Assembly (NCBI GenBank): GCA_016125335.1
Contig: WGLY01000027.1
Span: forward strand, 1 to 64,000
DNA length: 64,000 bases
Source: Frankiales bacterium
Lineage (GTDB): Bacteria; Actinomycetota; Actinomycetes; S36-B12; CAIYMF01
Direction of reading: 5' to 3'
Below the pieces are notes generated by a model, which saw only the letters and a list, made by a program, of their open reading frames with translations, was not told where the DNA came from and did not search any database. Positions 58,784 through 62,877 of this stretch are shown here, piece by piece (the first letter of the stretch is position 1; each line of letters begins with the position of its first letter). The translations under genes and the position numbers were made by a program.

Positions 58784-60478
58784 ATGGACCCGGTCGCCGT
58801 CGCGGCCCTGGTGCTGGCCGCAGCCCTCGCCGGTGCGCTGCTGGTGGTGCTCACGCGGGCCCGGCGCGCCGGCGCCGACGCCGAGCGCGAGCGCGCCGCC
58901 GAGATCGCCGCCGGCGTCGACGCCGAGCTCACCCGGCGTCAGCACGAGGCCGACGCCCGCGCCGAGGCGATCCGCACGGCGGCCCAGGCCGACGCCGAGC
59001 GCACCCGGGGCGTCGCGGAGCAGGCGCTGGCGGCGGCCGAGCGCGTGCGGGCCGAGGCGGCCGAGGACGTGCGCCGGGCCGAGGAGCGCCGGGCGGCCGT
59101 GGACGCCGACGTCGCCACCGCCCGCGCCGAGATCGCCGCGGCCCGCGCGGAGCTCGCCGGCGTCCGCGAGGAGGCCCAGCGGCGCGAGGACCGGCTCGCC
59201 GAGCGCGAGGCCCGGCTCGACGCCGAGCTGCTCGCCCTGGCGGATCGGCGCACCGCGCTCGACCACGCCGAGGACGACGTCGCCCGCCGGCTCGCCGACG
59301 TCGCCGAGGCCGAGGCGGCCGTCGCGGCCCAGCGCGACGCCGCGCTCGAGCGCGTGGCCGGGCTCAGCGCCGCCGAGGCCAAGGGCGAGCTCGTGACGCA
59401 GGTGGAGGCACAGGCCAAGCGGGAGGCCGCGCTGCGGGTCCGCGAGATCGAGCGCGAGGCGCGCGAGGACGGTGACGAGCGGGCCCGGCGCATCGTCACC
59501 CTCGCCGTGCAGCGGCTGGCGTCCGAGCAGACCGCGGAGTCTACGGTGTCCGTGCTGCACCTGCCCGACGACGCCATGAAGGGCCGCATCATCGGCCGCG
59601 AGGGCCGCAACATCCGCACGTTCGAGGCGGTCACCGGCGTCAACCTGCTCATCGACGACACCCCCGAGGCGGTGCTGCTCTCCAGCTTCGACCCGGTGCG
59701 CCGCGAGGTGGCCCGGCGTGCGCTGGAGGCACTCGTCGCCGACGGGCGCATCCAGCCCTCGCGCATCGAGGAGCAGTACGAGCGCAGCCGGCTCGAGGTC
59801 GAGGCCACGGTGGTCCGCGCCGGCGAGGACGCGCTGGTGGCCGTCGGCATCGGCGAGATGCACCCGGACCTCGTCGCGCTGCTCGGCCGGCTGCGCTACC
59901 GCACGTCCTACGGCCAGAACGTGCTGGGCCACCTGGTCGAGAGCGCCCACCTCGCGGGGATCATGGCGGCCGAGCTGCGGCTGCCGGTCGAGCACGCCAA
60001 GCGCTGCGCCCTGCTGCACGACGTCGGCAAGGCGCTCACCCACGAGGTGGAGGGCTCGCACGCCCTCATCGGTGCCGAGCTCGCCCGGCGCTACGGCGAG
60101 AACGAGGACGTCGTGCACGCGATCGAGGCGCACCACAACGAGGTGGAGGTGCGCACGCTCGAGGCCGTGCTCACCCAGGCCGCCGACGCGATCAGCGGCG
60201 GACGGCCCGGGGCGCGGCGCGAGTCCCTGGAGCACTACGTCGAGCGGCTCGAGCGGCTCGAGCAGATCGCCTCGTCCTACGACGGCGTCGACAAGGTGTT
60301 CGCCATGCAGGCCGGGCGCGAGGTGCGCGTGGTGGTGCTCCCAGAGGTCGTCGACGACGTCGGCGCCACGGTGCTCGCCCGCGACATCGCGGCCGAGATC
60401 GAGAAGGAGCTCACCTACCCCGGGCAGATCCGGGTGACCGTCGTGCGCGAGTCGCGCGCCACAGGCCTGGCCCACTGA
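58784..60478 (+). CDS. rny: Ribonuclease Y
   Basis: A membrane-anchored endoribonuclease that starts mRNA decay. 564 residues. N-terminal membrane anchor (about residues 3-22), a very long coiled coil rich in Ala/Arg/Glu (about 30-250), KH domain [19 protein letters not shown], and HD domain with catalytic H412-D413 in [10 protein letters not shown]. Many actinomycetes rely on RNase E and lack RNase Y, so its presence here, with RNase J, is noteworthy. It precedes the miaB locus. Confidence 0.96.
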
Positions 60479-60548
60479 GCCCTCGGCGCGAGCGCCTCCC
60501 GGGACCGCCGCCGGCGTCCGGCGCGCCGTCGCCCGCCCGGCGAGCACG

Positions 60549-60554
60549 TATCCT
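60549..60554 (+). promoter_or_regulatory. Native miaB -10 element (now displaced)
   Basis: TATCCT lies 9 nt before the ATG at 60564. It would have driven miaB before insertion and now faces only the truncated 33-codon copy, unless transcripts read through the insert. Confidence 0.45.
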
Positions 60555-60562
60555 CGACGCAC

Positions 60563-60616
60563 CATGAGCGCGCGCACGTACGAGGTCCGCACCTTCGGGT
60601 GCCAGATGAACGTCCA
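60563..60616 (+). repeat. 54-bp direct repeat, left copy (attL candidate)
   Basis: Identical at all 54 positions to 61407-61460, 844 bp away. It covers the start codon and first 17 codons of miaB. Identity stops abruptly on both sides, as expected for integration by site-specific recombination. Confidence 0.9.
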
Positions 60617-60665
60617 GATAGCGAGCGCCAACACGCCGTGGTTTGAACGTGTCTATTCGTGTTAG
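60564..60665 (+). pseudogene. Displaced 5' end of miaB (33 codons, then stop)
   Basis: The reading frame starts with the native MiaB N-terminus including FGCQMN and the first cluster cysteine. It diverges after codon 17 into element sequence and ends at a TAG at 60663. It is the original 5' end of miaB, cut off by the inserted DNA. The product could not hold an iron-sulfur cluster on its own. Confidence 0.85.
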
Positions 60666-60669
60666 CCCA

Positions 60670-60684
60670 GCAGGCGGGGCCTGC
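60670..60684 (+). promoter_or_regulatory. Hairpin before the insert gene
   Basis: GCAGGC-GGG-GCCTGC forms a 6-bp stem just upstream of the GGGGG ribosome binding site at 60691-60695. It could stop transcripts from the displaced miaB promoter or modulate translation; neither is shown. Confidence 0.35.
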
Positions 60685-60704
60685 GTCTAAGGGGGCCTAG
60701 AACC

Positions 60705-61175
60705 ATGACCGGCTGGCAGGACCAATGGGCACGCATAGAGCGATGGACAGAGCGTGTTAGGGCCGTTCAGCAGGGTCAGGCTGACTACTTCCTCGGCACT
60801 GAGCATTACCGGGACGAAGTGTTTGCCCTCTTTGAAGGCCTATGGCATCTGAAGGACTGGCTACATAACGACCCTGCTGTGCGCGTCAGCAAGGAGGATG
60901 TAGACGGCTGGGTGTTCAGCGAGACAAGCCCTGTGCTCAGCCTGAAAGCAGCCAAGGACGTTGCCAATGGCAGCAAGCACCTACGCCTGGCCAACCCTGC
61001 TGTTGACGCAGCCCAGACACGCAACGACGCCACGTTTGGGGGAGACAACAAGCACGTCTTCTACATCGAACTGGCCAGGACGGGGCAGGAATATGACGCT
61101 TTGACCCTTGCTGAGATGTGTACCCAGGACTGGCGTAGGTTCCTTGCCTTGCACAACATCACAGCACCATCTTGA
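60705..61175 (+). CDS. Hypothetical protein (156 aa) of the miaB insert
   Basis: A soluble, largely helical protein with no signal peptide or membrane segment. Notable motifs are FALFEGLWHLKDWLHND (residues about 40-56) and DVANGSKHLRLANP (about 85-98). I recall this WHLKDW/NGSKH combination in other small proteins of unknown function, and it gives a HEPN-like helical impression, but no Rx4-6H catalytic motif is certain. The codon use is clearly foreign. ATG 60705 follows GGGGG by 9 nt. Its stop is 11 bp from the stop of the convergent integrase fragment. Function unknown; it is the only intact gene of the element. Confidence 0.8.
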   Translation: MTGWQDQWARIERWTERVRAVQQGQADYFLGTEHYRDEVFALFEGLWHLKDWLHNDPAVRVSKEDVDGWVFSETSPVLSLKAAKDVANGSKHLRLANPAVDAAQTRNDATFGGDNKHVFYIELARTGQEYDALTLAEMCTQDWRRFLALHNITAPS

Positions 61176-61186
61176 ATTGCCTCTCC

Positions 61187-61405
61187 CTACCCGCTATCCC
61201 TGGACGGGGGAGGACCAGCAGTCCTGGTCATCACGTCATGTTCGGTGACAGTCTCAAAGACTCTGTCCAGCAAGGACATACGGGCAAGGAGACGTTCGTA
61301 ACTGTAGACAGTTGACTGACGTAGGCTCTTCTCCGTCGCTACAGCAAAGTGCCTGTCCCGAACCAGCATGGTTGTTGCCCCCTTCTGCCAGAGATGAACC
61401 ACCAC
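61187..61405 (-). pseudogene. Integrase-like N-terminal fragment (72 codons)
   Basis: Reads inward from the right repeat. The segment [20 protein letters not shown] followed by [12 protein letters not shown] resembles the SAM-like core-binding domain of tyrosine recombinases (pattern: sTv-x-Y-x-x-l...vT-x-x-dv). The catalytic domain with the R, H-x-x-R and Y residues is absent; a stop follows after a Pro/Ser-rich tail. Start could be GTG 61405 or ATG 61369. An integrase gene next to the attachment site is the usual layout, so this is probably the stump of int after an internal deletion. Confidence 0.6.
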
Positions 61406-61406
61406 G

Positions 61407-61460
61407 CATGAGCGCGCGCACGTACGAGGTCCGCACCTTCGGGTGCCAGATGAACGTCCA
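61407..61460 (+). repeat. 54-bp direct repeat, right copy (attR candidate)
   Basis: Identical to 60563-60616. It provides the intact miaB with its start codon and first 17 codons, so the gene is rebuilt on this side of the insert. Confidence 0.9.
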
Positions 61461-62877
61461 CGACTCCGAGCGGCTCTCCGGGCTGCTCGAGGACGCCGGC
61501 TACGCGCGCCCCGCCGAGGGCCAGGAGCCCGACGTCGTGGTGTTCAACACGTGCGCCGTGCGCGAGAACGCCGACAACCGCCTGTACGGCAACCTCGGCC
61601 ACCTCAAGCCGGTCAAGGACGCCCACCCCGGCATGCAGATCGCCGTCGGCGGGTGCCTCGCGCAGAAGGACCGCGGCGAGATCACCCGGCGCGCGCCGTG
61701 GGTCGACGTCGTCTTCGGCACCCACAACATCGGGTCGCTGCCGGTGCTGCTCGAGCGCTCGCGGGTCAACGCCGAGGCGCAGGTGGAGATCCTCGAGTCG
61801 CTCGAGACCTTCCCCTCGACGCTGCCGAGCCGGCGCGAGTCGGCGTACGCCGCGTGGGTCGCGATCAGCGTCGGGTGCAACAACACCTGCACGTTCTGCA
61901 TCGTCCCAAGCCTGCGCGGCAAGGAGAAGGACCGCCGGCCTGGCGACGTGCTCGCCGAGGTGGAGGCGCTCGTGGCCGAGGGCGTCCTCGAGGTGACGCT
62001 GCTCGGCCAGAACGTCAACGCCTACGGCGTGGAGTTCGGCGACCGGGCCGCCTTCGCGAAGCTGCTCCGCGCGTGCGGCGGGATCGAGGGCCTCGAGCGC
62101 GTGCGCTTCACCAGTCCGCACCCGGCCGACTTCACCGACGACGTCATCGCCGCGATGGCCGAGACGCCCAACGTCATGCCGCAGCTGCACATGCCGCTGC
62201 AGAGCGGCAGCGACCGCGTCCTGCGCGCCATGCGCCGCTCGTACCGCAGCGAGCGCTACCTCGGGATCATCGACCGGGTCCGCGCCGCGATGCCGGACGC
62301 CGCCATCACCACCGACATCATCGTGGGCTTCCCGGGCGAGACCGACGAGGACTTCGCCGCGACCCTCGACGTCGTGCGCCGCGCGCGTTTCGCCTCGGCG
62401 TTCACCTTCCAGTACTCCCCGCGCCCGGGCACGCCGGCGGCGACGTACGAGGATCAGGTGCCGCCCGAGGTGGTGCGCGAGCGCTACGCCGCCCTGCAGG
62501 CGCTGGTCGACGAGATCGCCTGGGACGAGAACAAGCGGCTGGTCGGCCGCACGGTGGAGCTGCTCGTCGCCGAGGGCGAGGGGCGCAAGGACGGCGAGAC
62601 GCACCGCATGTCCGGCCGCGCGCCGGACAACCGGCTCGTGCACTTCGTGCCCGGCGAGCACGCACCGCGCCCGGGCGACGTCGTCACCGTCGAGGTCTCC
62701 TACGCCGCGCCGCACCACCTGGTGAGCGACGTCCCCGCGGCCGGGCTGCGCCGCACCCGGGCGGGCGACGCGTGGGAGGCCCGCCAGGCCGCGCCCGCCC
62801 CGGCGTCCGCTGCTGCGTCCGCCACGGCATCCGGCGCGGCCCCGGTGCTGCTGGGCCTGCCCACCGTCCGCACCTGA
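61408..62877 (+). CDS. miaB: tRNA-2-methylthio-N6-dimethylallyladenosine synthase
   Basis: A radical-SAM enzyme that methylthiolates i6A37 of tRNAs. 489 residues. N-terminal cluster cysteines C13, C49 and C83; radical-SAM motif CNNTCTFC at C157, C161, C164; C-terminal TRAM domain with [12 protein letters not shown]. It has an Ala-rich tail. The gene is intact, but its first 17 codons come from the right repeat. The ATG has no strong ribosome binding site, and the native promoter is 845 bp upstream. An in-frame TTG at 61312 would add 32 element-encoded residues, which I regard as unlikely. Confidence 0.95.

Follow-up and report, generated by a model that had tools for sequence, protein, structure and literature searches.

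In a 64,000-nucleotide stretch of a Frankiales bacterium (hereafter the window, meaning the whole stretch of DNA that was analysed), a short insert at the 5' end of miaB is read here as the decayed, integrase-less remnant of a miaB-specific temperate phage or of a phage-like satellite. Our overall explanation, which we consider likely, is that this remnant has left a single gene, and that the gene encodes a solitary HEPN-like anti-phage protein. The insert is ordinary in kind, an att-bounded scrap of prophage whose anatomy is largely explained, and its gene content suggests a remnant incapable of moving itself. Beyond this one insert, the analysis puts on record a group of small phages that have the 5' end of miaB as their attachment site, and it links to phage biology a protein family that lacks a library assignment and is spread over many phyla and on mobile DNA.

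Anatomy of the insert

The insert occupies the interval between rny and miaB and is bounded by two direct repeats (60563-60616 and 61407-61460) that are identical at 54/54 positions, each made up of the opening 53 bases of miaB and the single base ahead of them. The repeats are spaced 844 bp start to start and enclose 790 bp; the original description gave an element of under 1 kb. Composition is foreign: GC of 60617-61460 (the insert plus one repeat) is 58%, and GC3 of the cargo ORF is 67%, against 97.5% for rny and 98% for miaB. The features are as follows.

60549..60554, plus strand: TATCCT, a possible native miaB -10 box upstream of attL, now reading into the insert (by eye)
60563..60616, plus strand: attL, the left copy of the miaB 5' end and attachment core (repeat comparison, phage core match)
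60564..60665, plus strand: truncated miaB frame left by the insertion, 33 codons, ATG to TAG (sequence, translated start)
60648..60662, plus strand: right attachment arm CGTGTCTATTCGTGT, 35 nt past the core (arm motif search)
60690..60695, plus strand: AGGGGG, likely ribosome binding site (sequence)
60705..61175, plus strand: cargo (moron-like) gene, 156 aa, HLKDW/DLANGSKH family, HEPN-like model (ORF, homologues, model)
61247..61372, minus strand: integrase stub, residues ~4-45 of the miaB-phage tyrosine integrase (profile and pairwise matches)
61393..61406, plus strand: left attachment arm GATGAACCACCACG (arm motif search)
61407..61460, plus strand: attR, the right core copy and functional miaB start (repeat comparison, phage core match)
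61408..62877, plus strand: full miaB coding frame, its start supplied from the element side (ORF list)

Apart from the cargo gene and the integrase stub, no further gene was recognised in the insert from the ORF list, and because structural and replication genes are thus lacking we speak of a remnant and not of a prophage. The cargo gene had been described as the sole survivor of the element, which holds for intact genes, of which there is one; a truncated integrase (61247-61372) nevertheless persists on the other strand. Within the cargo ORF there is also an imperfect inverted repeat of 14 nt (60979-60992 and 61127-61140; 86% complementary).

These features suggest how the insert may have arisen. 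A temperate phage or satellite would have integrated into the miaB 5' end via a small tyrosine integrase, with an attP carrying a copy of that 5' end such that the miaB reading frame would be kept, as it is in the window. Everything from about int codon 45 to the attL side is absent except for one gene, and one or more deletions would have removed the missing phage DNA. We call the remnant integrase-less because only the start of the integrase survives, beside attR.

Phages that mimic the miaB 5' end

The attachment core has clear counterparts in phages. An exact 20-mer of the repeat, searched in IMG/VR, matched five records (L055-L059), all of them phages with terminase-, portal-, capsid- or tail-like genes (gene types as read from translations). 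In all five the 20-mer falls inside a site mimicking the miaB 5' end, whose core is 82-96% identical to that of the window across the aligned part. An integrase of 253-255 aa adjoins the mimic in L055, L056, L057 and L059, while in L058 the locus breaks off after the first int codons and the remainder lies at the other end of the record; its identity as a tyrosine integrase comes from tblastn to annotated phage integrases. Searching with an integrase alignment returned 12 records, the original five included. In two that were found by integrase alone (L065, L070), int again adjoins a mimic; L066-L069 start at most 36 bases from the integrase, where the attachment site would fall outside the record; and in L071, which shows no mimic, the match is restricted to integrase residues 176-250. 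The mimic is visible in 7 of the 12 integrase records, with five of those seven ascertained through the 20-mer. Across L055-L059, L065 and L070, the side of the core on which int is found varies from phage to phage, and most sites in this group bear inverted GATGAAYC..CACG arms.

The same arms can be located around the window's cores. At attR, the left arm GATGAACC stops 57 nt short of the core end, a distance of 56-57 in L055, L058, L059 and L065 and of 66-67 in L056, L057 and L070. The right arm CGTGTnnATnCGTGT starts 35 nt past the core at attL and 34 nt past it in L055-L059, with one extra middle base; it was not found in L065 or L070, and the window has no counterpart of the distal GATTCAT seen in the phages. 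The exact form of the right-arm motif, which was defined post hoc after the phages had been examined, occurred in 0/20000 shuffles of the window stretch.

Beside attR, the minus-strand integrase stub is identical to the integrase of L057 at 21/41 positions (pairwise E 4e-11) and is the top match of the genome to the integrase profile (residues 4-45, E 1.4e-7); positive controls L057, L066 and L069 scored E 2.7e-84 or better in the same search. Three further genome matches, short, C-terminal and inside long frames (E 3.4e-6 to 6.4e-4), are taken as other recombinases, and this profile search found no full-length integrase of the miaB-phage family in the bacterium's own genome. At E<=1e-40, a search lacking a positive control found no such integrase among 166 genomes of the order; it was rerun at E<=0.001, with controls included, on 7 of the 166.

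The miaB locus in relatives and a possible captured promoter

The miaB locus was recovered in 16/17 genomes of the bacterial family. In the same-genus genome G006 (locus L044), the left arm recurs in the miaB leader with its spacing unchanged, rny ends 93 bases ahead of the miaB motif, and the intervening bases read, by eye, as about a dozen minus-strand int codons; tblastn gave no integrase match in this stretch, which is too short. By this reading G006 looks like an apparently independent, smaller scar of the same kind. None of the other 14 family loci had a tblastn integrase match better than E 0.11. Three same-genus loci (L041, L051, L052) have extra DNA between rny and miaB, with distances of 814, 530 and 941 bases.

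A TAnnnT box, recognised by eye and post hoc, lies shortly ahead of the miaB start in 12/15 family loci; it was not seen in L053 or L054 and is replaced in L044. In the window the corresponding TATCCT stays on the attL side and is missing at attR, as it likewise is in G006, and the cargo gene starts 151 bp past it in the same direction. Within 60400-61500, scanning by consensus revealed neither a sigma-70-like site nor a terminator. Since the cargo gene adjoins attL, on the strand opposite int and downstream of the old miaB promoter region, it is possibly transcribed from that captured promoter.

The cargo gene and its family

As had been claimed, the 156-codon frame (60705-61175) is intact, with an ATG start, a plausible ribosome binding site (AGGGGG, 9 nt before the ATG) and both WHLKDW and NGSKH in its translation. 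Length alone is weak evidence of a gene: a stop-free run of at least 156 codons occurred in some frame in 242/2000 first-order Markov sequences modelled on the insert. Rather, we regard the gene as real because family homologues exist and because the near-invariant residues are retained. Specifically, across the 26 rows of an alignment W52 never varies, while D51, D85, N88, K91, H92 and W143 reach 90%, and the window protein keeps all seven.

The prediction of a defined but uncharacterised family is borne out, in that homologues were found and no library model is convincing; the family's motifs are HLKDW and DLANGSKH. For the window protein, neither Pfam nor NCBIfam gave a model at E<=10, and PHROGs gave one match, at E 0.24; PADLOC gave 0 models at E<=5 for it and three homologues; and Pfam gave only scattered marginal matches (best E 0.0022) to 26 family members. 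Sequence searches of solved structures returned nothing credible. By tblastn, the cargo protein had no match in phages and three in plasmids (E 2e-14, 4e-13 and 3e-8, covering 84-94% of the query) from Pseudarthrobacter, Streptomyces violaceoruber (pSV2) and Paraburkholderia, and other family members as query added three Burkholderia-group plasmid records. Among species genomes, 27/56 candidate stretches are family loci, in hosts ranging from Streptomyces and Nocardia to Chloroflexi, Acidobacteriota, Planctomycetota, Proteobacteria and a Methanofastidiosum MAG (archaeal). The family is found in 5/395 other genomes of the phylum, and the gene in 0/165 other genomes of the order.

Two virus records carry family members, with the surrounding gene types read from translations: in L032 the member lies on the strand opposite to structural-type genes, and in L074 it lies beyond lysis-type genes, again on the opposite strand. 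We take both arrangements to be the layout of a moron. The cargo gene was present in 0/11 tested of the 12 miaB-integrase records, which may be fragments, and in L056, where int points the same way, other, minus-strand genes occupy the site next to the core. Because of this absence and the different L056 site, we infer the gene's origin in a miaB phage from its position only, and the gene would be an accessory one.

A search for homologues in phages, satellites and defence islands had been proposed as a check; the plasmids and virus records are joined by some loci near defence genes. We collected 185 ORFs of at least 80 aa within 3 kb of the 27 loci, where ORF calls are rough if GC-rich, and chose 105 for scanning. 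The neighbours include a type I methyltransferase (L007), a NACHT/STAND protein (L015), a type IIG restriction-modification enzyme (L016, E 3.7e-296), PD-Lambda-3_B (L014), a helicase matching restriction models (L012), a Schlafen AlbA_2 domain (L010), a CAP12-type TIR slightly below the Pfam cut-off (L011) and a PemK-like protein that, by its sequence, we take to be at L030. At L026 (Litchfieldella), a short pAgo with an APAZ-REase partner lies <1 kb upstream of the family member. Neighbours at L006, L013 and L027 appear ordinary in our own reading, and PADLOC, run singly on 19 chosen neighbours, matched 6 and left 13 without a match. For these chosen ORFs, the proximity to defence genes at some loci is no more than suggestive. 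The cargo is probably a phage moron serving as an anti-phage factor; its likeliest role, which we put forward tentatively and at somewhat under even chances, would be lysogenic conversion in which RNA is cleaved or bound to counter other phages.

An apparently recent insertion and the question of selection

That retention of the open frame may mean selection, as originally proposed, is not supported, and we reject an argument for selection from openness, as the att repeats point to a recent insertion. With attL and attR diverged at 0/54 positions, neutral divergence is bounded at ~5.5% (95%), although the insertion could seem younger than it is if the repeats have exchanged sequence by gene conversion. 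A random substitution in the ORF creates a stop in about 4% of cases, and the neutral probability of no nonsense change, an estimate that covers substitutions and not indels, is 0.36 at 5.5% divergence, 0.83 at 1% and 0.91 at 0.5%. The insertion looks recent because attL still equals attR at 54/54 although miaB should no longer need attL, and openness of the frame is therefore not evidence of selection. Close homologues that would allow dN/dS were not found, the gene being in 0/165 other genomes of the order. More generally, the att repeats of a reduced element should be used to date an intact cargo gene before selection is inferred.

The same data lend weight to a neutral bystander, a gene merely left by a recent deletion, whose expression is weak or absent and which will decay. 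We give this possibility close to, yet below, an even chance. It accords with the identity of attL and attR over 54 bp, with the 0.36-0.91 neutral probability of an open frame for divergences of 0.055-0.005, with the gene's absence from 165 other order genomes and with the lack of a recognisable sigma-70-like promoter or terminator. Against it, all near-invariant family residues are kept, though this is equally expected in a young insertion, and the gene sits downstream of the old miaB promoter region. Such a bystander is compatible with the phage-remnant part of our explanation and differs from it on function only.

Predicted structure and possible likeness to HEPN proteins

An AlphaFold2 model built with the 26-row alignment is confident (pLDDT 89.6, pTM 0.86; a single-sequence fold reached pLDDT 62) and consists of four helices, a beta hairpin at 102-123 and a last helix at 132-149. 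Comparison with HEPN folds, which had been suggested as a check, gave a mixed answer: the model leans to HEPN toxins, but neither Foldseek nor profile comparison added support. Foldseek found nothing at E<=0.001 and placed HEPN toxins at E 3.1-8.8, and a BFVD fold search likewise found nothing at E<=0.001. Near the top of VIA-align were ANT-4'' (6nmk, Z 6.9) and the HEPN toxin 7ae6 (Z 6.8, rmsd 4.2, 108 aligned), with further HEPN toxins close by (7ae9, 7ae8, 6m6w, 7bxo; HEPN-titled entries span Z 4.8-6.8); the HEPN homologues 1wol and 1o3u ranked lower, and cytochromes c' and b562 match as well. A Z below 7 is inside the tool's stated background for helical folds, and no listed HEPN chain was above it. 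Profile-profile hhalign against two HEPN families gave a probability of 0.2-0.3, where those two sets score only 7.7 mutually.

Sequence motifs bear on the same question. According to the part of PMC3710099 available to us, the HEPN Rx4-6H motif occupies the C-terminal stretch of helix 3 together with the loop leading into helix 4, the R is followed by a polar residue (N, D or H in most cases), an acid lies in helix 2, and some HEPN families keep the H without the R. The window protein has A87-x4-H92 in place of Rx4-6H, and the arginine is not conserved: position 84 is K in the window protein, A or R in relatives, and R in 8/26 rows. Those eight (L011, L015, L018, L023, L024, L026, L030, L031) read R-D-L/V-A-N-x-S-K-H, and 5/7 DUF4145 sequences read R-x3-N-x3-H, the pattern of these eight family members. 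The cargo family resembles the HEPN superfamily, as described in that part of the source, in its helical layout, the helix-2 acid (D51) and an N-x3-H ending the penultimate helix; it differs in the lack of a sequence-level match, in the beta-hairpin insert, in the additional conserved HLKDW and K91 and, for the window protein, in having no arginine (PMC3710099).

We regard the cargo protein as probably HEPN-like and stop short of claiming full membership of the superfamily. D51 in helix 2 together with N88 and H92 of the N-x3-H may form an active or RNA-binding site, and D51, N88, K91 and H92 provide a candidate active-site hypothesis for the whole family. A different helical fold with a beta hairpin, for instance a DNA- or protein-binding anti-repressor or a plasmid or phage maintenance factor, has a chance that we rate as appreciable, if clearly short of even: weak fold matches are spread across cytochromes c', b562 and HEPN proteins and hhalign gave nil, whereas the D-x-A-N-x-S-K-H that ends the penultimate helix and the helix-2 D fit the HEPN layout as given in the available part of PMC3710099.

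Alternative origins of the insert

A sub-kilobase mobile cassette would reverse the order of events: deletion came first, and a miaB phage residing in the same cell then supplied, in trans, the integrase that inserted a 0.84-kb circle holding the arms, the core, one gene and the int stub. The presence of the arms and both cores with only a stub of int would suit this history, and att-flanked elements without an integrase are known as CIMEs (PMC5704250, available part). We nonetheless hold it improbable, as no second copy was seen, the other scar (in G006) differs and is one-sided, and the right arm lacks its distal GATTCAT. More doubtful still is the bolder proposal of a new minimal kind of element, a complete, self-sufficient one-gene att cassette of sub-kilobase size for a solitary HEPN-like anti-phage protein; if it were true, the cassette would rely on the phages that it wards off for the integrase that carries it, in trans, into miaB, and would borrow its promoter from miaB. 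Finally, a chromosomal housekeeping gene or a tandem-duplication artefact has the direct repeat itself in its favour and nothing else, and we reject it as having next to no chance, since the repeat equals a phage core, an int stub is present, homologues are scattered on mobile DNA and the gene was found in 0/165 other genomes of the order.

Comparison with known systems

We return to the remnant of a miaB-specific phage or satellite. No report of miaB as an attachment site was found in the literature searched, the nearest targets being rimO and dusA, and the available parts of PMC4482086, PMC9144972 and PMC12593503 do not report it. As far as the consulted part of PMC4482086 describes them, dusA islands and prophages resemble the insert in that they enter a tRNA-modification gene at its start and provide it with a new 5' end; they have their own integrase family and leave the old 5' end as a remnant. 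The target here is instead miaB, and this copy has lost its integrase. Burkholderia phage JC1 similarly uses the 5' end of a methylthiotransferase gene, the MiaB-like rimO, as its attachment site, but with an 18-bp overlap, a predicted serine recombinase and another host group and target gene (PMC9144972, in the part available). Among satellites, the Mulch/Flayer elements of Streptomyces (PMC10690885, likewise in part) include in MulchRoom the tyrosine integrase that is the best named relative among the matches listed (34% over 93%); a six-frame search of MulchRoom found no miaB mimic. A further parallel concerns what has been kept: like the CIMEs described in the accessible part of PMC5704250, the insert retains attL and attR and has lost its integration genes, with both att sites present and a complete recombinase absent, and it departs from them in being phage-like and not ICE- or IME-derived, and in holding one gene in <1 kb.
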